A stretch of DNA of 9,914 bases from Candidatus Poribacteria bacterium (GTDB taxonomy: Bacteria > Poribacteria > DTPJ01 > WJIO01): positions 1 through 9,914 of the forward strand of contig WJIO01000061.1 of assembly GCA_014730235.1 (NCBI GenBank), in the 5' to 3' direction. Made by a program: the position numbers and the translations under genes. Of this stretch, positions 819 through 9,914 are shown in pieces (the stretch's first letter is position 1; every line of letters starts with the position of its first letter). The notes under the pieces are model-generated. The model did not search any database and was not told where the DNA came from. It was given only the letters and a program-made list of their open reading frames with translations.

Positions 819-1253
819 ATGTCACTAAAGAGATGGTTTTTAACAGATAAAAGCGGTTTTTCCATTATGGAAGGGGTAGTAAGTATAGCAGTTTTTACTA
901 TAGCAGCCCTGGGAACATATACTTCCCTGATATTGACCCAGAGATATGTGCTACATTCCAGGCAAATGGCCCAGGCCGTAAATTATACTCGTTCAAAGCT
1001 GGAAGAAATTTCAGATATTGAAATAACTGAAATCGCTGATACATATCCACCAAATGAAAATAATTATTTATACGATGGATATGAACCATATCTACCTTCT
1101 GCGAGGTGGAAGGTACAATACTTTAACGAATATGGCAACCCATCAACAATGGCCAATCCATTGACCATAAGGATTACTCTATACTGGAAAAAGACGGACA
1201 ATTCGGATCATTCTATCCAGTTGGCCACAAAGGTAACACCGGGGGCAATATAG
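819..1253 (+). CDS. PilV-like minor prepilin
   Basis: A 144-residue type IV pilin-like protein. A short basic leader (residues 1-13, ending K-S-G) is followed by the prepilin peptidase site G13/F14 with the conserved Glu at mature position 5 (E18, 'FSIME'). A hydrophobic helix runs to about residue 38 ('GVVSIAVFTIAALGTYTSLI'). The rest is a small globular domain with no cysteines. The family is inserted in the inner membrane, processed by PilD and incorporated at or near the pilus tip as a priming minor pilin; a pseudopilin of a type II-like system is the alternative. The start is supported by a GGGGGTG ribosome binding site at 808-814. It is first in an operon with 1267-1938, 13 bp downstream, and the PilV-PilW-PilX order supports the call. 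Confidence 0.85.
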   Translation: MSLKRWFLTDKSGFSIMEGVVSIAVFTIAALGTYTSLILTQRYVLHSRQMAQAVNYTRSKLEEISDIEITEIADTYPPNENNYLYDGYEPYLPSARWKVQYFNEYGNPSTMANPLTIRITLYWKKTDNSDHSIQLATKVTPGAI

Positions 1254-1266
1254 GGGGATTGTTAAT

Positions 1267-1938
1267 ATGTTTGGGCTAAAAGCAAATAAACATATATTTT
1301 TTGGGGAAGAAGGTCTTACTCTTGTAGAAATTTTAATATCCCTGGTTATTATGTCCATAAGCATTCTGGGTACATACGGTATTTTAATAGCTGTCCAGGA
1401 GCAGCAATCGGACAAGATTGATACCATAAGAATGTATGACGAAGCCAGAATAGCGCTGGATCGGATGTACAGGGAAATATCTGAAACATCAAACAGGACA
1501 GTATCGGCAGGAACAGGGTGCAAAGGTGTAAGTTTTGCCTCTGCCCGGAATTCCAATGGCGTTTTCCAATGGGAGACTTACGGTTCATTAAATTTCAGCC
1601 GTCCTGTCTGGAAAAAAGCAGTAATTTATTATGTATATAAAAAATCACCACAAGAACCGAATAAATTGTGTTTATACAGAAAAACAGTAAACAAAACCAA
1701 CTGGTCAGGTCAGAACAGGCATTATAACACCTGTGGTGCGGTAGGATATAACGGTGAAATTGTCGCTGAAGATGTCTATGATCTTACCTTTTACCCTACA
1801 GATGTTACAGCACAGAATCATTACATTCAGGTAAATCTGGAAATGAAAATAACCCCTGATGAAGACGAAGATGAAGAAGCCATTCAACCAGGAATAAAAC
1901 TCAGCACAGTTATTCCCATGATGAATCGAGAAAGGTAA
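1267..1938 (+). CDS. PilW-like minor prepilin
   Basis: A 223-residue prepilin. Leader residues 1-16 end in E-E-G and are cut before L17. Mature residue 5 is Glu (E21 in 'LTLVE'), followed by a hydrophobic helix to about residue 45. The C-terminal ~175 residues form the periplasmic domain, with three cysteines (in 'GCKG', 'LCLY' and 'NTCG') that could make a disulfide. An acidic stretch (D-E-D-E-D-E-E) lies near the end. The AGGGGGA ribosome binding site (1252-1258) overlaps the stop codon of the PilV-like gene, so the two are likely translated together. By family this is a PilW/PulJ-type minor pilin that joins the PilV- and PilX-like proteins in an initiation complex. The body is too divergent to tell a type IV pilus from a type II secretion pseudopilus. 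Confidence 0.82.
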   Translation: MFGLKANKHIFFGEEGLTLVEILISLVIMSISILGTYGILIAVQEQQSDKIDTIRMYDEARIALDRMYREISETSNRTVSAGTGCKGVSFASARNSNGVFQWETYGSLNFSRPVWKKAVIYYVYKKSPQEPNKLCLYRKTVNKTNWSGQNRHYNTCGAVGYNGEIVAEDVYDLTFYPTDVTAQNHYIQVNLEMKITPDEDEDEEAIQPGIKLSTVIPMMNRER

Positions 1939-1939
1939 A

Positions 1940-1946
1940 GAGGTGA
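1940..1946 (+). promoter_or_regulatory. Ribosome binding site deciding the PilX-like start
   Basis: GAGGTGA lies 5 nt before the ATG at 1952. This favours 1952 over the upstream in-frame GTG at 1943, which itself falls inside this site. Confidence 0.6.
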
Positions 1947-1951
1947 AGGTT

Positions 1952-3595
1952 ATGACAAAACAACATCCAAAGGGATTTGGTATATTCATTTTACATGAAG
2001 AAGGCTTCGCGTTAGTTGTTACGGTGGTTATAGCATTTATACTGGTTTTATTTGGTGGATCGCTCATGACCATTGCCATGCAGGAAATAAAACAGGTAAG
2101 CCAAGAGAAAAAGTCAAAAGACGCTTTTTACCTTGCTCGAGCTGGTATAGCTGATTCAATAGACACCCTTAGAAATGAATATTACTATATATCCGAGGAA
2201 AAATACACCCGTTATTATGTGTCCTTTGAAAGTGGAAGTTACAGCTACTCTATTGAACCTCTGGGAAAAGTCCATTTTATCGGCAGCAAGTATATGACCG
2301 GAACATTCCATGTTGAGGCTGTTGGCTATAAGGATGGCAAAAACCGGGGGCTTGGTTCTAAGATAGAGCGGGATACGTTTCTCAGGTACTCCAGATTTGT
2401 CAGCCAGGGAAGCCTTAGTTATGCAGCAAATGCAGAAATATTTGCCGATGTTTACGTTGGTAATGATCTCAACCTAAACGGTTATCCTGTAACTTTTCAT
2501 GGTGATCTGGAAATCGGCGGCAGGATTAACAACCAGCACAGAGGTATTTATGACGGTGATATAAGGGGAATAGGCCCTGGAATTGATTTACACGATTCTG
2601 TGAATATCAGTTATTACAGAGATCTGGCCAGGGGGAATATACCCAACGAAGGAACCGGCGTATATCTTTCCAATACAATTTCATTAGATTTAAGCCTCTT
2701 TGATTTCTCAAATAATCCACCGACATATAACGGATATCAACTTCCTTCAGACTTCAATGGTGTAATATTCTGTGAGAGTGATATATACGTGGAAGGCACA
2801 TTGGAAGGCGCAAAGATAGGCGACGAAACCAAAGGCTCTCTTACTTTTATCTCTAACGATGACATTATTGCCACCGATCATGTCCGCACAGGTAATGGCA
2901 ACGAGGATTCCCGCAGTACAGGTTCAGTAACTTTTAACCAGAGAAGCGGAAGAAGACAGACAGAATATGTAAACCTTAACGGCATTATTGATGACGATAC
3001 TACTGCTTTAAAGCTCAGGATAAATGGCAGTAGATGGAGCAAAATGAGGATGTATATAAAGGAAGATGGGGATGTCATTGCCCAGACAGACCTGGTGCGA
3101 GAGTCTGGATCACCAAATGAGCAGACAGCGATAGTTAATAACGTCATATTAGACCCTGATAACCACAACTACCAGGCGGAAATTCAATTTTACTCATCAG
3201 ACAGAGGTAATAATTACGCCAATGTAGAGGCATATGACGGAGAGCCTGTAAACGTGGGTTTTGTGGCTAAGGATATGTTTTATATTGATGATAACACCCC
3301 AAGAGAATTGGTGATAGATGCGGCAATACTGACAAGAAACCGAACATGGAACGCTCTGGGTAATTATTATAGTCATCCTGATGGTTTTGACTCCGGCAAC
3401 TGGGAGTTAACCATAAACGGTCCAATTATAACATATAACGGTGGTTCGGCGGGGCCATGGTCCAGTTATGGCAAAAGAAATTACAATTATGATATGGATA
3501 TGATCGAATACCCGCCACCAGCTTTTCCCGTACCTTCAGATGGATGGAAAATTGCATATTGGTATTACATGAAAGAGGATGAAATTACATTATGA
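1952..3595 (+). CDS. PilX-like protein with a large C-terminal ectodomain
   Basis: A 547-residue protein. The N-terminus is prepilin-like: leader ending 'HEEG' at residue 18, then 'FALVVTVVIAF', a hydrophobic helix to about residue 43. Mature position 5 is Val rather than Glu, as in PilX and GspK-type proteins. A segment 'KDAFYLARAGIADSI' (residues 56-70) matches the helix conserved after the membrane segment in PilX N-terminal domains, though Arg63 stands where Glu is usual. Residues ~140-547 form a long Gly/Asn/Tyr/Asp-rich, beta-prone region ('DVYVGNDLNLNGYPVTFHGDL') suggestive of a repetitive beta structure. Typical PilX proteins have about 150-250 residues, so this one carries an extra domain. 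The gene follows PilW by 13 bp and overlaps the next gene by 4 bp (ATGA). It is probably a pilus-tip or secretion-tip component. Confidence 0.75.
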   Translation: MTKQHPKGFGIFILHEEGFALVVTVVIAFILVLFGGSLMTIAMQEIKQVSQEKKSKDAFYLARAGIADSIDTLRNEYYYISEEKYTRYYVSFESGSYSYSIEPLGKVHFIGSKYMTGTFHVEAVGYKDGKNRGLGSKIERDTFLRYSRFVSQGSLSYAANAEIFADVYVGNDLNLNGYPVTFHGDLEIGGRINNQHRGIYDGDIRGIGPGIDLHDSVNISYYRDLARGNIPNEGTGVYLSNTISLDLSLFDFSNNPPTYNGYQLPSDFNGVIFCESDIYVEGTLEGAKIGDETKGSLTFISNDDIIATDHVRTGNGNEDSRSTGSVTFNQRSGRRQTEYVNLNGIIDDDTTALKLRINGSRWSKMRMYIKEDGDVIAQTDLVRESGSPNEQTAIVNNVILDPDNHNYQAEIQFYSSDRGNNYANVEAYDGEPVNVGFVAKDMFYIDDNTPRELVIDAAILTRNRTWNALGNYYSHPDGFDSGNWELTINGPIITYNGGSAGPWSSYGKRNYNYDMDMIEYPPPAFPVPSDGWKIAYWYYMKEDEITL

Positions 3596-3999
3596 AAACC
3601 AAATCAAACAGCAGAACAATGTATATATTCCTTGGGGTTTTTGTAGCAGCAGTTCTGGGTTTGTTTGTTCTTATGCACCTCACAACACGATCTCTGGAAG
3701 AGCAAATGTCATACCAGGAGTACGAGTCAACAGAGGAAAAACAAACAGCTAAAGCTGATCAGGTCCAGGATGTTTCAGCAAATCAAAAGAACGTGGTTAA
3801 AAACGAGATCACCAGACCGGAAAAAGAACAAAAACTAAACCAAGAAGAAGAAACAGAGAAAACAAAGAAACCAGAAACCTACCCAAGAATAGAAAGCTCC
3901 AAAAATACCACAGATGACTGGATGTTTGAAGGTGGTGAAGAAATAGAGGCTAAAATAGATTCACATAGCAAAAATGAATTGACAAAACCTAGTGAGTAA
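3592..3999 (+). CDS. Small single-pass membrane protein with a charged low-complexity tail
   Basis: 135 residues. A short basic N-terminus (K2, K4, R8) precedes one membrane helix (about residues 10-29, 'MYIFLGVFVAAVLGLFVLM'), so the N-terminus is probably cytoplasmic and the tail periplasmic. The remaining ~105 residues are rich in Glu, Lys, Gln, Thr and Asn with almost no hydrophobic residues, and are probably disordered or partly coiled coil. The start codon overlaps the stop of the PilX-like gene (ATGA at 3592-3595), which points to translational coupling and a shared role in the pilus system. I do not recognise the family. Such anchored, extended proteins can act as periplasmic spacers or partners in envelope assemblies, but no function is shown. 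Confidence 0.7.
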   Translation: MKTKSNSRTMYIFLGVFVAAVLGLFVLMHLTTRSLEEQMSYQEYESTEEKQTAKADQVQDVSANQKNVVKNEITRPEKEQKLNQEEETEKTKKPETYPRIESSKNTTDDWMFEGGEEIEAKIDSHSKNELTKPSE

Positions 4000-4388: not shown

Positions 4389-4979
4389 ATGAAAAAAATT
4401 GCCATTTTAATTTTAGCATCATTTTTACCTTTTGCCTCCTTCTGTGGATGCAAGTCTGAAAAAATTGTGGCTCAGGATATACAGGAGTATAGAGGTGATA
4501 TAGATATGGAACACGCAACTTTTGCGGCAGGATGTTTTTGGGGTGTTGAATATACATTTAGCAAAGTTGAAGGTGTAGCTTCTACAAAAGTTGGCTATAC
4601 CGGCGGTCATACGGAAAACCCCACGTATAAAGAAGTTTGCAGAAAAAATACAGGACATGCGGAAGCCGTTTTCGTGGAGTATGATCCTGATGTGGTGTCA
4701 TACGAAGAGCTTCTGGATGTTTTCTGGAAGGTTCATGATCCTACAACCCTCAACCGTCAGGGACCGGATATAGGAAGCCAGTATAGATCGGCCATTTTTT
4801 ATCACAACGAAGAACAGAAAAAAGCCGCTATGGAATCCAAAGACATGCTTCAGAAATCCGGCAAATATAGAAGAGATATAGTAACAGAAATAACTCCAGC
4901 CTCTACATTCTACAAGGCCGAAGATTATCACCAGAAGTATTACGAGAAAAAAGGTTTGACCGGCTGTGGAATAGGCTGA
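4389..4979 (+). CDS. msrA: Peptide-methionine (S)-S-oxide reductase MsrA, exported form
   Basis: 196 residues. MsrA reduces the S-epimer of methionine sulfoxide in oxidised proteins back to methionine, using a catalytic Cys recycled by disulfide exchange. The hallmark 'GCFWG' is at residues 48-52 with catalytic Cys49. Further family motifs are 'GYTGG', 'GHAEAV', '[21 protein letters not shown]' and the C-terminal 'EDYHQKYY'; Cys193 near the end may be a resolving cysteine. Residues 1-21 are an export signal ('[20 protein letters not shown]'), possibly a lipoprotein signal with Cys21, though the lipobox is imperfect, so the enzyme probably works in the envelope. AGGAGG at 4373-4378 precedes this start. 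The internal Met40 (4506) has its own strong site and begins exactly where cytosolic MsrA proteins begin. The gene is monocistronic, ending at a shared terminator. Confidence 0.95.
4491..4498 (+). promoter_or_regulatory. Internal ribosome binding site within msrA
   Basis: AGAGGTGA lies 7 nt before the in-frame ATG at 4506 (Met40). Initiation there would give a 157-residue MsrA without the export signal. Confidence 0.45.
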
Positions 4980-5044: not shown

Positions 5045-6829
5045 TTACATACCGGCCATCTGGGAAAAATCATTTATAGTCCGGGTGAAATTCTGTATTT
5101 CACTGATGCGAAAATAGATAGTATTCTGAAGCCCATCATCGTTAAACCTTGTGGAAGCGGCAAACCCCACCCCGGGTTTTACTTCCTTTCTCGTTAGTCT
5201 ACCGCCCATCTGACGCACCATCATATTCATTATAAATTTCATATAACCCGAAGGCGCTACATAAAGACTCATATTGCTTTTATGGGATAAGCGTATGTTT
5301 AACTCGTCAAAACCAGGCGTATACTGTATGCTGGTTCCCCGGCCCTTTATAGAATCAATTGCCGTTTTTATGGTGCTTGCCGACTGAGAGACTGCATATA
5401 TTATTTTATCATCCACAAAAGCATACCATGTAAAGACTCTGTCGGGATAGTTCATTGATCTATTAGGCATATTCTGATTCATTTCACCCAAATCCATCTG
5501 GAAACTTTTTATATTTACACCTGTGTAATTCTGGGAAGGACCCTTTGACATTTTAAAATCCAGACCAAAGGCCTTATTCATTGGTCGAATTAGATCTTCC
5601 ATGTAGTCCAGATTTCCCAATGTTTTTCGGGCTTTTTCCCGGTCTTTAAGGTCTATTATATAAACCACCCGGGGCATTGTTTTGTCGGCATCAGTAAGGA
5701 AGGCGTAAGCAATCTCGTCCCCCAGGCATGACATCATATCATCAACGGCTTTTTTGTATTTATCCCGGAAAAACGCCAGCTCATCCTGTTGAATATCTTC
5801 TGCTATTGATTCCAGCATTATATCAAGCATAATTTCATTTATCTTACTGTAGGTTTCAGAATCAACAGTCATTCCACCAGCCATGAAAATATCACCCGGA
5901 AGCTGGTTGATTAACCTCATACGACTCGGTTTCATATTCTTCAGAAAAGGACAGACAGGACTGGCGGGAAAAACCTTGAGAGAATCGTTGAACCAGACTC
6001 CGCTTCTTTCTATACCAAGGCTAAAGGAATATGATTTGATCTGCTTTAACAGCCACAGCCCAATATCCATCTCGGAACTTACCAGATTGGCCACATTCAT
6101 ATTTTTATACGGCGTTGACGATCCCTGCTGCTTCATCTGTTTTATCATTTCGGCTTTGGCGTTGTTTAATTTATTCTCCAGAAAAGACGTATTATCAACT
6201 GTGATCTTCCCTACTGATACATATATCAAGACATCCCCTGAACGCAGGTTCTTTATATTCGATGTATATGCCCCGTTGTCAGCTATTGATGGCTTGTCTT
6301 TCAAATGTGTTTCGATTGCATCTGTTATGTCGGATTTTTTCTTTGAGTATACGAATATATCATCCAGAAATACCCAGGCTGAGTCAGGGCTTGGTTGACC
6401 GTAAGTTACACCTTTATATTCCTTTTTATCCCCACCAATTTTTTCTTCAATAGCCTTTTGCGCTTTTTGTAATGATGCAATATGGACGGCCACACCGGGA
6501 GGGTTGTTAAAAGAGGCATTGTTCCAGAAAATACAAGCATCTCTTTTCATATCAAATCCAAGACCCTCCAGGGCCATAATATCATGCACATCTGTTCCTG
6601 TGGATTGTTTTAAAAGCATTGCCATTGATACATGGGGAACATCGTCTATTTCCAGGGAATTCATAAGTTTAGACAATTTCAGATCGAAATTCCTGGGATT
6701 GGATATTTTGACGATAATTGAAGAATTCTCAGGAATTACCCTGACAACAGAATCCTGTTGAGAAAAGGCCGGCGTATTTGCAAAAAGAAGAATTACTATG
6801 ACTATTGATATTAAAAGATTTATTTTCAT
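5045..6829 (-). CDS. Exported protein of unknown function, DUF3352-like
   Basis: 594 residues from the ATG at 6829, which follows GGGGAGGT (6842-6835) by 5 nt and begins a clean signal peptide: 'MKINLLISIVIVILLFANTPAFS', likely cut before Gln24. The longer frame to 6898 starts inside a probable -10 box and is rejected. The mature part opens with 'VIPENSSIIVKISN' and holds repeated blocks of a form '..PDSAWVFLDDIFVYSKKKSDITDAIETH' and 'FTWYAFVDDKIIYAVSQSASTIKTAIDS'. These alternate beta strands with a helix after 'S', the pattern I associate with DUF3352-type periplasmic proteins. No catalytic motif is visible. It is probably soluble in the periplasm or on the surface. It stands alone, convergent with msrA. 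The family label is tentative; that it is an exported protein is much surer. Confidence 0.85.
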   Translation of the reverse strand: MKINLLISIVIVILLFANTPAFSQQDSVVRVIPENSSIIVKISNPRNFDLKLSKLMNSLEIDDVPHVSMAMLLKQSTGTDVHDIMALEGLGFDMKRDACIFWNNASFNNPPGVAVHIASLQKAQKAIEEKIGGDKKEYKGVTYGQPSPDSAWVFLDDIFVYSKKKSDITDAIETHLKDKPSIADNGAYTSNIKNLRSGDVLIYVSVGKITVDNTSFLENKLNNAKAEMIKQMKQQGSSTPYKNMNVANLVSSEMDIGLWLLKQIKSYSFSLGIERSGVWFNDSLKVFPASPVCPFLKNMKPSRMRLINQLPGDIFMAGGMTVDSETYSKINEIMLDIMLESIAEDIQQDELAFFRDKYKKAVDDMMSCLGDEIAYAFLTDADKTMPRVVYIIDLKDREKARKTLGNLDYMEDLIRPMNKAFGLDFKMSKGPSQNYTGVNIKSFQMDLGEMNQNMPNRSMNYPDRVFTWYAFVDDKIIYAVSQSASTIKTAIDSIKGRGTSIQYTPGFDELNIRLSHKSNMSLYVAPSGYMKFIMNMMVRQMGGRLTRKEVKPGVGFAASTRFNDDGLQNTIYFRISEIQNFTRTINDFSQMAGM

Positions 6830-6834
6830 TACAT

Positions 6835-6842
6835 ACCTCCCC
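6835..6842 (-). promoter_or_regulatory. Ribosome binding site deciding the start of the 594-residue protein
   Basis: Read on the minus strand this is GGGGAGGT, 5 nt before the ATG at 6829, which is also where the signal peptide begins. Confidence 0.75.
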
Positions 6843-6896
6843 GGTATTAATTTGCACATTCCGATCTTGTCATTCCTCCGTCTAAACATTAGTCGC

Positions 6897-6902
6897 ATTA
6901 TA
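6897..6902 (-). promoter_or_regulatory. Possible -10 box for the minus-strand gene
   Basis: On the minus strand this reads TATAAT, an exact -10 consensus, about 68 bp before the chosen start codon. No good -35 hexamer is seen at 16-18 bp, so this is only a candidate. Confidence 0.3.
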
Positions 6903-6963: not shown

Positions 6964-6971
6964 AGAATTTT
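6964..6971. repeat. Left target site duplication of the MITE
   Basis: AGAATTTT, identical to 7110-7117 on the other side of the element. Confidence 0.75.
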
Positions 6972-7109
6972 GGTTCTTCCGGGTTTAGTGTGGAAATAAT
7001 AAAATATTATCTAATAAGAAAAAATATCCTCTGTTTGTCATTCCTGCTTTCGCAGGAATGACATACTTATACAGGTTTTCATATTTACCACACTAAACCC
7101 TGAAGAACC
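6972..7109. mobile_element. 138-bp MITE with ISL3-like ends and 8-bp target duplication, copy 2
   Basis: Terminal inverted repeats 6972-6993 and 7088-7109 match at 21 of 22 positions and begin GGTTCTTC. The eight bases on both outer sides are identical (AGAATTTT at 6964-6971 and at 7110-7117), the signature of transposition. ISL3-family insertion sequences make 8-bp duplications and, as I recall, have ends starting GGxTCTTC, so an ISL3-type transposase acting in trans is the likely mover. No coding capacity. The centre holds a GTCATTCCTGC palindrome (7037-7062). Confidence 0.8.
7037..7062. repeat. GTCATTCCTGC palindrome inside the MITE
   Basis: Arms 7037-7047 and 7052-7062 are perfect 11-bp reverse complements around TTTC. 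It is the same unit as the arms of 4069-4140. Confidence 0.8.
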
Positions 7110-7117
7110 AGAATTTT
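7110..7117. repeat. Right target site duplication of the MITE
   Basis: AGAATTTT, identical to 6964-6971. Confidence 0.75.
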
Positions 7118-7182: not shown

Positions 7183-7211
7183 TTGATATTTACGCAATTT
7201 TGATGTAAAAT
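7183..7211 (+). promoter_or_regulatory. Sigma-70 promoter of the RHH/CHAT operon
   Basis: TTGATA (7183-7188) and TAAAAT (7206-7211) each match the consensus at 5 of 6 bases and are separated by exactly 17 bp. A transcript would start near 7218, giving a leader of about 50 nt. Two ACGCAAT words (7192-7198 in the spacer, 7236-7242 downstream), 44 bp apart, are candidate operator half-sites for the RHH protein encoded next. Confidence 0.55.
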
Positions 7212-7267
7212 ACACATGAAATAAACGTCAATTTAACGCAATATAAAAGCAACAGGAGGTAAGTAAA

Positions 7268-7474
7268 ATGGCAAAACTTACAGTACAATTTGGAGATAGA
7301 ATTAATGATAATCTGGAAGAAATCGCAAAACGCAAAGGTATAACTAAATCCGAGGTTATTCGCCGGGCCCTGGCCATGTATATGTATGTTGATGATGAAA
7401 CCAAAGAGGGTAACAAATTGACTATTACATCGGCTGAGGATGATAAGGTACTTAAGGAAATTGTTAATCTTTAA
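7268..7474 (+). CDS. Ribbon-helix-helix (CopG/Arc-type) DNA-binding protein
   Basis: 68 residues. Residues 3-8 ('KLTVQF') form the DNA-contacting beta ribbon. Helix A (about 11-23), a turn 'GITKSEV' at 24-30 and helix B (to about 40) follow, which is the standard RHH_1 layout. A C-terminal tail 'GNKLTITSAEDDKVLKEIVNL' is typical of small RHH regulators that sit at the head of conflict-type operons. RHH proteins work as dimers and often repress their own operon. An AGGAGGT ribosome binding site (7254-7260) is 7 nt before the ATG. The gene is first in an operon with the membrane protein (45-bp gap) and the CHAT/NB-ARC protein. Its likely job is to control that operon. It could also be an antitoxin, but no partner toxin of a known RHH-linked family is seen. 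Confidence 0.87.
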   Translation: MAKLTVQFGDRINDNLEEIAKRKGITKSEVIRRALAMYMYVDDETKEGNKLTITSAEDDKVLKEIVNL

Positions 7475-7506
7475 GAAATTCTCACAGTGCTTACGACCAG
7501 ACATTC

Positions 7507-7519: not shown

Positions 7520-7906
7520 ATGGGAAATGGAAATTCAGATAATAAAGTTAGTATTGGAGATATAACCAGCAAAAAGATTCCATCAGATGGATCCGATAAA
7601 GACATCCGAATACTACAGGTCAGGGCAGGTGTTGTATTATGCTATATATCCATAGCCCTGGTTGGTGCATCATCTATCATAATGATTATATATTATATCG
7701 TATCCATAGGTGATTTTAGAGAAATACTGAAAGTAACTAATGGAAGCACAGATACAGAATTAATACAAAAATACAAGGAAGTTTCGGGAATAGCTGTTGA
7801 CAATATCCTCAGAGTAAGCGAACGCATTATAGGAAGTATTCTTGTACCTATACTGACGTTATTATTAGGTTATATATTCGGTTCAAAGGAAGCCAAAAAC
7901 GAGTAA
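7520..7906 (+). CDS. Small two-helix membrane protein of the CHAT operon
   Basis: 128 residues. A polar N-terminal segment of ~35 residues rich in Asn, Asp, Ser and Lys precedes membrane helix 1 (about 38-61). A mixed helical loop follows (62-102, 'DFREILKVTNGSTDTELIQKY'), then membrane helix 2 (about 103-121, 'ILVPILTLLLGYIFG') and a short charged tail. Both ends are probably cytoplasmic and the loop periplasmic. The 'LLGYIFGSKEA' ending resembles small two-TM proteins I have seen near NTPase conflict systems, but I cannot name a family. It lies between the RHH regulator and the CHAT protease gene, the latter starting 11 bp after its stop, so the products are probably co-translated. It could anchor the CHAT protein at the membrane, be cleaved by it, or form a pore. 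None of these is shown. Confidence 0.8.
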   Translation: MGNGNSDNKVSIGDITSKKIPSDGSDKDIRILQVRAGVVLCYISIALVGASSIIMIIYYIVSIGDFREILKVTNGSTDTELIQKYKEVSGIAVDNILRVSERIIGSILVPILTLLLGYIFGSKEAKNE

Positions 7907-7917
7907 AGGCGGCATAT

Positions 7918-9914
7918 ATGGAGATTAACAGAAGCTTAAAGATTTTGCTGGCTTGCAGTCGTCCAATGGCGGTGCGAGGTAATGATAGTCCTTTAGATAT
8001 AGTAAGACAGGAAGAGGAACTGGAAGCTGTAAGAAATGGTTTGCAGGGTTTAAATCAAAATGTTGAGGTTGTGGTCCACAGCGGGGTTATGCTTTCGGAC
8101 ATAAATCGAATTCTGATGAACTCTGACCCGGAGTTTGACATACTGCATCTTATCCTGCATGGCACAGAGGACGGAAAACTCTATTTCGAGGATGAATCCG
8201 GCTATCTAAGGCCGGTAAGTCCTGATGAATTATCCATAGTCATAGATGGTCGGGTCAAAATGCTGGTTACTATGGCCTGTCATTCCGGAGGAGCGGTAAA
8301 TCTCTTGTTTGATGGTGATGATCCACCGGTTCAGTCGGCTGTGTGTATCGACCAGAAGCATCCTGTAACAGTCCGGGCGGCGGAAATTTTCACCGGCGCG
8401 CTGTATTCCGGCCTAGCAAGAGGGCGAACACTGGAGCGCAGTTTCAAGGATGCTGTGGGAACAGTCCGTCTGGATGATATTGTGGGTGAAAAAGCCATGC
8501 CCGGTTCAGACGAAGAGCCGTCCCAGTGGAAGCTGTTCCAGATAAAAGGCGATGACCAGATTACATTCCCGGACGTGGCCCGGGGAGATGTTAATATATC
8601 AGAGGCAGTAGAGAAAACCAACCATGTTAAAATACTCCTTACAGAAGAAATCTTTGTCGGTCGTAATGCCGACATGGCCAGAATCATAGAAAATATTCTC
8701 CCTCCATCTCTTGGTAATAATAAGCCAAAAGCCCGGATAGTCACCATTGTTGGTGAAGGCGGAATGGGTAAAACGAGAATAGCCCAGAAGGTGGCGGAAT
8801 GGCTGGCCTTCCGGGGAAGGTTTCCCGGCGGAATATTTGAGGTTGCCTGCGAGGGTGTCAATACATCCGCAGGATTGGCTGTGGAAATAATGAATTCACT
8901 GGATATAGAGGGCGCTGAAAGCATACCCAACGTGGAAACTGTTCTGCCGGAACTGCTGAAAAATTATAACTTGGATACGCTGCTTGTGCTGGATAATCTG
9001 GATGATCTATTTTCTGAGGATGGTAATAAAGCTGAAGCCGGAAGGCTTCTTAAAGCCTGTCTTACCAATTCCCCAAAGCTACGGATATTGGCCACATGCC
9101 GATGGCGGCTGGATTTGAGTTCGGATGAAAAGGTTTATCCGTTGAATCCCATGAATCAAATAGAGGCGGCGAAGCTGTTTATCCTGAGTATCCCTGACAA
9201 TAGGATAAAAAGGCAACTGCAGCAAAGTCTGTTTGAAACTGACAAAAACAGTGATTTCTTTAAACTGATCAATCTCACATCCTGCATCCCCCTGTGCGTA
9301 ATCCTTGCCGCCCGAAGGCTTGAACGGCATGGTCAAAGCCTGGAGACACTGCTGGAGGAAGCGGCGGAGGATATGATGAACGTGATGAACGATCCGGGGT
9401 TGGCATATCTGCCGGACAGGCTCAAGTCTGTCAGGGCATCCCTGGGATTATCTTATAAGAGGGTTTCAGAACCGGCAAAACTCCTTTTTGCCCGGATGAG
9501 CTTTTTCCCCGGTGGACTGTCCAGGAATCTTGACCTGTTTGAGCTTCTTGGAAATGCTTGGAAGGATGAACCGGAGGAACTCACCCGCTATGCCCTGGTA
9601 CGTTTTAATATTGATCATCAGCGATACATAATGCTGAATCCTGTCATGGAGTACGCAAAGGAAAAGCTGGATGGAATGGAGAACAGCAGGGATTTCCGTA
9701 AAAAGGCTGCCGAATACTGGGCCCAGTTTGCGTCGTGGCATGACATGATGATGGACGTAAGACCAGCCAGCCAGACCCAGGTGGAACAAATTATTGACCT
9801 GCCGGAAGACCCGGAAGAGCGTAAAGAGATGAAAGAGCTTCTGCGGGATAAATCCTTCGCCGAATTATCAGCGGAGGAGGATAACTTGGTCCACGCCGCC
9901 CAATGGGCGTTAAA
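7918..9914 (+). CDS. CHAT protease / NB-ARC (STAND NTPase) protein, 3' end outside window
   Basis: The frame is open from ATG 7918 to the window end (665 codons). Residues ~5-215 form a caspase-like CHAT protease with catalytic His81 ('LHLILHGTEDG') and Cys121 ('VTMACHSGG'), then the usual end 'AAEIFTGALYSGLARGRTLERS'. Residues ~245-590 form an NB-ARC/AP-ATPase switch: Walker A GEGGMGKT (279-286, Lys285), Walker B 'LLVLDNLDD' (Asp359), 'ATCR' (Arg395) and a degenerate GLPL motif with Pro458. A winged-helix region follows, where the MHD-like position reads 'MLNPVMEYA' (572-580). From ~600 on a helical repeat sensor, perhaps TPR, appears to begin. STAND proteins oligomerise on sensing a trigger; a CHAT effector would then cleave its target. 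The start has only a weak site (AAAGGCGG), consistent with coupling to the gene 11 bp upstream. Its base composition is more GC-rich than its neighbours. Confidence 0.9.
   Translation, partial: MEINRSLKILLACSRPMAVRGNDSPLDIVRQEEELEAVRNGLQGLNQNVEVVVHSGVMLSDINRILMNSDPEFDILHLILHGTEDGKLYFEDESGYLRPVSPDELSIVIDGRVKMLVTMACHSGGAVNLLFDGDDPPVQSAVCIDQKHPVTVRAAEIFTGALYSGLARGRTLERSFKDAVGTVRLDDIVGEKAMPGSDEEPSQWKLFQIKGDDQITFPDVARGDVNISEAVEKTNHVKILLTEEIFVGRNADMARIIENILPPSLGNNKPKARIVTIVGEGGMGKTRIAQKVAEWLAFRGRFPGGIFEVACEGVNTSAGLAVEIMNSLDIEGAESIPNVETVLPELLKNYNLDTLLVLDNLDDLFSEDGNKAEAGRLLKACLTNSPKLRILATCRWRLDLSSDEKVYPLNPMNQIEAAKLFILSIPDNRIKRQLQQSLFETDKNSDFFKLINLTSCIPLCVILAARRLERHGQSLETLLEEAAEDMMNVMNDPGLAYLPDRLKSVRASLGLSYKRVSEPAKLLFARMSFFPGGLSRNLDLFELLGNAWKDEPEELTRYALVRFNIDHQRYIMLNPVMEYAKEKLDGMENSRDFRKKAAEYWAQFASWHDMMMDVRPASQTQVEQIIDLPEDPEERKEMKELLRDKSFAELSAEEDNLVHAAQWAL

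Follow-up and report, generated by a model that had tools for sequence, protein, structure and literature searches.

The locus

The stretch of DNA analyzed here, referred to below as the window, is an entire 9914-bp poribacterial contig from a host genome of 5.5 Mb. Its distal end holds three consecutive genes on one strand (Table 1), encoding an RHH DNA-binding protein, a small two-TM membrane protein (2TM), and a CHAT protease joined to a NACHT/STAND NTPase. The RHH gene lies 45 bp ahead of the 2TM gene, and the 2TM stop codon is followed, after a gap of 11 bp, by the CHAT ATG at 7918. Because no terminator-like site was found between the RHH and CHAT genes, the layout suggests that RHH, 2TM, and CHAT are probably carried on one transcript. 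The promoter candidate upstream of the RHH gene is best considered suggestive, as the scan that returned it found 5 sites against 5.8 in shuffles, which is not above chance. A near-identical 10-nt direct repeat (TTTACGCAAT / TTAACGCAAT) lies around this putative promoter and could serve as an RHH operator, with the caveat that short repeats in two copies often arise by chance.

Table 1. Features of the window, with coordinates and the basis for each assignment
Feature	Position	Strand	Basis
Type IV pilus/pseudopilin-like gene cluster	819..3999		Two N-terminal methylation motifs, one of which passes the cut-off; weak PilX_N match
Peptide methionine sulfoxide reductase with lipoprotein-like signal	4389..4979
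DUF3352 protein, on the opposite strand	5045..6898
MITE-like element, immediately upstream of the cassette	6966..7115		Inverted arms of 39 nt sharing 85% complementarity
Candidate sigma70-like promoter ahead of the RHH gene, TTGATA-17-TAAAAT	7183..7211	+	Consensus scan, 10/12 matches
Direct repeat, candidate RHH operator	7189..7198 and 7233..7242
RHH (CopG/RelB-like) DNA-binding protein, 68 aa, first cassette gene	7268..7474	+	Pfam RHH_1, second-cassette identity, hhalign
Two-TM helical-hairpin membrane protein (2TM), 128 aa	7520..7906	+	ORF, hydropathy, predicted structure
CHAT protease domain (~residues 1-210), then NACHT/STAND NTPase; gene cut by contig end	7918..9914	+

The RHH protein scores 24.4 bits against Pfam RHH_1 (cut-off 20.5). 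The 2TM ORF opens with an ATG behind a strong Shine-Dalgarno sequence, AGGAGGG, and an alternative in-frame start, the GTG at 7487, would yield a protein of 139 aa. Kyte-Doolittle analysis places hydrophobic peaks at residues 39-57 (TM1) and 103-121 (TM2), and the first 36 residues are polar. The ORF, the hydropathy profile, and the intergenic gap confirm what an earlier note on this DNA had described, namely a small two-helix membrane protein with a polar N-terminal tail directly ahead of a CHAT gene. That note overlooked the RHH gene, as well as the RHH-2TM pairs that occur without CHAT.

The CHAT assignment draws on the conservation of a His (in LHGTEDG) and a Cys (in MACHSG), which align with those of annotated CHAT proteins in an eight-sequence alignment, and on tblastn matches to cyanobacterial and other CHAT regions at E-values down to 3e-8; the Pfam CHAT score, at 16.9 bits, falls under the cut-off of 24. 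The NACHT/STAND NTPase domain that lies 3′ of CHAT is recognized by Pfam NACHT at 32.4 bits (cut-off 26.7), while the NB-ARC score of 22.7 is just below its cut-off. Because the gene runs off the contig end, the C-terminal sensor region of the protein is unseen, and the AlphaFold model of the CHAT domain, with a pLDDT of 38.5, is too poor for use.

A second cassette in another poribacterial family

The same gene order, RHH (68 aa), 2TM (127 aa), and CHAT, occurs in a second genome, G063, which belongs to another poribacterial family; JADFGN010000070.1, from a Candidatus Poribacteria MAG, has the identical sequence. Here the 2TM stop codon overlaps the CHAT start by 4 bp (ATGA). Identity between the two cassettes amounts to 41% for RHH and 30% for CHAT, and for 2TM to 22% across the whole protein, rising to 28% in its C-terminal half. 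The best-conserved part of 2TM is TM2, with the shared pattern LVPxxTLLxGYxFGxxE, and the N-terminal tail of ~36 residues holds few positions common to both. The 2TM ORF can be regarded as more than a chance reading frame, since its relative in the second poribacterium sits between the same two gene types. We have high confidence that the RHH, 2TM, and CHAT genes are real and that the cassette recurs.

The distribution of the three components across the phylum is narrow. Among 84 poribacterial genomes, 2TM was found at two places only, both adjoining a CHAT gene; these are the only two cassettes found, and in both the contig ends within the CHAT gene. RHH relatives were found in three genomes, the third being G064 (L008 733-1390), where the RHH gene precedes a putative zinc metallopeptidase (HETVH) and neither 2TM nor CHAT is present. 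Conversely, the one further genome of the window's order that was encountered (G001, L005) carries a CHAT-STAND gene with no RHH or 2TM just upstream. Further 2TM profile matches in Poribacteria were rejected as chance TM similarity, since they lie within frames of ~460-790 residues or, in one case, in a frame interrupted by stops. Searches of genome contigs returned no 2TM homologues and, among the RHH matches listed, the second cassette only. No description of the cassette was found in the open-access papers covered, although such an absence is not proof.

RHH-2TM pairs without CHAT

Outside the Poribacteria, RHH genes followed directly by an 84-127-aa 2TM gene, and lacking CHAT, are found in B. 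glumae (L022), Spartinivicinus (L018), and an E. coli IncX1 plasmid (L023), and four IMG/VR viral contigs (L026, L027, L028, and L031) harbor the same dyad, likewise without CHAT. These were located by tblastn of the RHH protein against plasmids, and then by searching viral contigs with RHH and 2TM profiles. Among loci reached via RHH with enough room downstream, 2TM follows RHH in 7 of 16—a count that leaves out the window, L031 (reached via 2TM), and L029 (too little room), and that comes from a small sample partly seeded by the RHHs of known dyads. Within the dyads the stop and start codons of the two genes often overlap, which, together with their occurrence without CHAT, indicates that RHH and 2TM belong together. 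In complete E. coli genomes any match is rare (3/5426), and the dyad region was present in two of the 5426, on plasmids. The IncX1 plasmid dyad (L023 2501-3022) is annotated simply as an RHH protein and a hypothetical protein.

Other searches returned little. The membrane half of the dyads reached the cut-off of no family model in Pfam or NCBIfam, and PHROGs gave weak matches to families of unknown function only. No 2TM homologues were recovered at a useful E-value by tblastn against plasmids, from viral contigs with a two-sequence profile, or among phage records, and no CHAT relatives were found in the viral contigs. Annotation around nine plasmid CHAT regions revealed no RHH-2TM pair; the small gene upstream of one plasmid CHAT (L060), once translated, contains no TM segment by eye.

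How closely the cassette and dyad proteins are related differs between the two halves of the pair. RHH profiles of the cassettes and of the plasmid and viral dyads match in hhalign with an E-value of 4.8e-16, a strength that owes something to RHH being a common fold. For 2TM the homology is moderate and comes down to one TM2 motif: profile comparison of the window and second cassette with the dyads gives a match over TM2 at E ~1e-3, equaled by one of 600 column shuffles in which the composition of each segment was kept. Plain HMM searches discriminate less well: the second-cassette 2TM is weakly set apart, equaled by 9 of the 4733 shuffles reported, and with a single-sequence HMM the window 2TM is not separated from its shuffles, of which 352 of 4995 do as well. 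The B. glumae protein lacks the P-x-x-T-L motif of TM2 in the alignment and may represent a different hairpin. On these sequence comparisons, a common origin of the cassette and dyad RHH-2TM pairs is likely. A pattern close to [DK]V[DS]IxD[VI], noted by eye near the N terminus of the window protein and of some dyad proteins, was discounted, as the second cassette fits it poorly.

Predicted structure and topology of 2TM

AlphaFold2 predicts an all-helical hairpin, devoid of strands, with helices at residues 27-73 and 78-127; the model was built on six aligned sequences and is of modest confidence (mean pLDDT 63). Residues 1-32 have pLDDT below 50 and are predicted to be disordered, in keeping with the flexible N-terminal segment that had been proposed. 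A helical loop separates TM1 from TM2, and the latter carries the motif LVPxxTLLxGYxFG. Foldseek returned no significant PDB match for the hairpin, the best being a designed TM hairpin (E 0.45).

Comparison with known effectors was similarly negative: against holin, SLATT, gasdermin, and PADLOC effector models, nothing rose above cut-off for the window 2TM. No SLATT profile in Pfam or NCBIfam matched it, and the B. glumae 2TM reaches a sub-threshold 14.5 bits against SLATT (cut-off 55). Nor was there a gasdermin match in Pfam or NCBIfam, and the beta-strand pore-forming fold is absent from the AlphaFold2 model, so gasdermin membership is unsupported, as the earlier note had itself surmised.

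Topology is not fixed by charge in the window protein, where the tail (6+/5−), loop (5+/5−), and C-terminal end (2+/2−) are nearly balanced. Dyad 2TM proteins have basic residues right before TM1 and an acidic loop, a charge pattern that suggests an N-in/C-in arrangement.

Parallels with known systems

Several characterized systems resemble parts of the cassette. In bGSDM operons (PMC9612521) a protease of caspase-like type is encoded beside a small membrane-acting protein, and the parallel holds at that level only: the cassette has a predicted all-helical two-TM hairpin rather than a beta-rich protein, its first gene encodes an RHH protein, and CHAT and STAND are combined in one polypeptide. 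The Csx29-Csx30-CASP-sigma system of type III-E CRISPR offers a second parallel, in that the CHAT protease of Csx29 (TPR-CHAT) cuts a protein that holds a transcription factor (PMC10028731), proteolysis thereby relieving inhibition of the regulator. There too a CHAT protease is encoded near a protein substrate and a transcription factor; the cassette, however, is free of CRISPR parts, has an RHH protein as regulator and the 2TM hairpin as putative substrate, and would sense through a STAND NTPase instead of an RNA-guided complex.

Type II TA loci with RHH antitoxins share with the RHH-2TM pair an RHH gene in first position, a small second gene, an overlapping or adjacent start, and carriage on mobile elements. 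They differ in that the second gene of RHH-2TM encodes a membrane hairpin whose role as a toxin is putative. When type II TA systems were surveyed in 2009, none was reported with a membrane component (PMC2701414); a TA-like function for the pair is possible, though it would for that reason be unusual. SLATT effectors are likewise two-TM helical proteins of NTPase-containing conflict systems, but the window 2TM matches no SLATT model and nucleotide-signaling genes are absent from the window.

Possible functions of the cassette

To our knowledge, few substrates of bacterial CHAT proteases have been described, and the earlier note had proposed 2TM as a possible one, with the N-terminal segment as a plausible site of cleavage. 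Part of that proposal stands: shared order and tight coupling in two families argue for a functional link between 2TM and CHAT. The notion that being a CHAT target defines 2TM is weakened, because 2TM of this type occurs with RHH alone and CHAT-STAND occurs without 2TM; the protein is not a dedicated CHAT substrate. A conserved cleavage site also goes unsupported, given the poor conservation of the N-terminal segment between the two cassettes. Instead, 2TM appears to belong to a mobile regulator/membrane dyad that, in Poribacteria, became coupled with a CHAT-STAND protease. Since its steadier partner elsewhere is the RHH regulator, it is probably a membrane part of the system, and we consider it fairly probable that it contributes to the working of the CHAT-STAND system. 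The cassette as a whole is probably a conflict or stress-response system; in any single mechanism for it our confidence is low.

The mechanism that we tentatively favor, while giving it somewhat less than an even chance, is that 2TM is the membrane component of an RHH-2TM-CHAT-STAND cassette and that activated CHAT acts on its N-terminal tail. RHH would be the likely autoregulator and the steady partner of 2TM, with which it may be in contact. The CHAT-STAND protein would act as sensor-protease, its STAND part sensing a trigger and oligomerizing, whereupon the CHAT protease would be activated and could act on the presumably cytoplasmic tail of the hairpin. Either a membrane-held RHH would then be freed, or the hairpin would switch to a membrane-damaging state. 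Retention of the three-gene order and of tight 2TM-CHAT spacing, despite protein identities of 22-41%, supports this reading. By analogy with Csx29-Csx30-CASP-sigma, CHAT-STAND could cut the hairpin tail and so free RHH; the full version of this idea, in which CHAT-STAND senses infection or stress and cuts the tail of a hairpin that tethers the RHH transcription factor at the membrane, strikes us as improbable. If true, it would mean that a STAND immune receptor controls gene expression by regulated proteolysis, by way of a mobile RHH-2TM dyad joined to a CHAT-STAND gene.

Alternatively, the hairpin may be a membrane anchor or adaptor only, whose tail recruits CHAT-STAND (and RHH) while being neither cut nor membrane-damaging, the CHAT substrate lying elsewhere. 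The predicted all-helical hairpin with its disordered tail would suit a tether, and the variable tail offers no conserved cleavage site. CHAT-STAND genes without a membrane partner also exist. A plain anchor would have no obvious need, however, for the conserved polar/proline TM2 motif PxxTLLxGYxFG, and the dyads that lack CHAT suggest that 2TM has a role in its own right; on balance we hold this explanation to be rather unlikely, if a serious one.

An independent RHH-2TM module—TA-like, or a regulator-membrane pair of plasmids or phages—that just happens to lie upstream of CHAT-STAND and shares its transcript would account for the dyads without CHAT and for the RHH-first order and small, overlapping genes familiar from type II TA loci, and the MITE-like repeat directly upstream fits local rearrangement. 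Yet the same tightly coupled CHAT neighbor in two families speaks against it, as does the lack of a membrane component in the type II TA survey (PMC2701414), and we regard it as unlikely. Least of all do we expect a latent pore or depolarizing toxin, restrained by the N-terminal tail or RHH and triggered by CHAT cleavage in a gasdermin-like function with another fold: the disordered tail and the bGSDM-like adjacency of protease and membrane protein (PMC9612521) would suit it, but all of the effector models tried fell below cut-off and the tail is not conserved.

Even where the mechanism is in doubt, the cassette ties one CHAT-STAND protein to one membrane and one DNA-binding protein, providing a list of two candidate substrates that a single experiment could test. 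The RHH-2TM dyad is itself a recurrent two-gene plasmid module, extending to an E. coli IncX1 plasmid.

The MITE-like element upstream of the cassette has ~40 related copies within the same genome.
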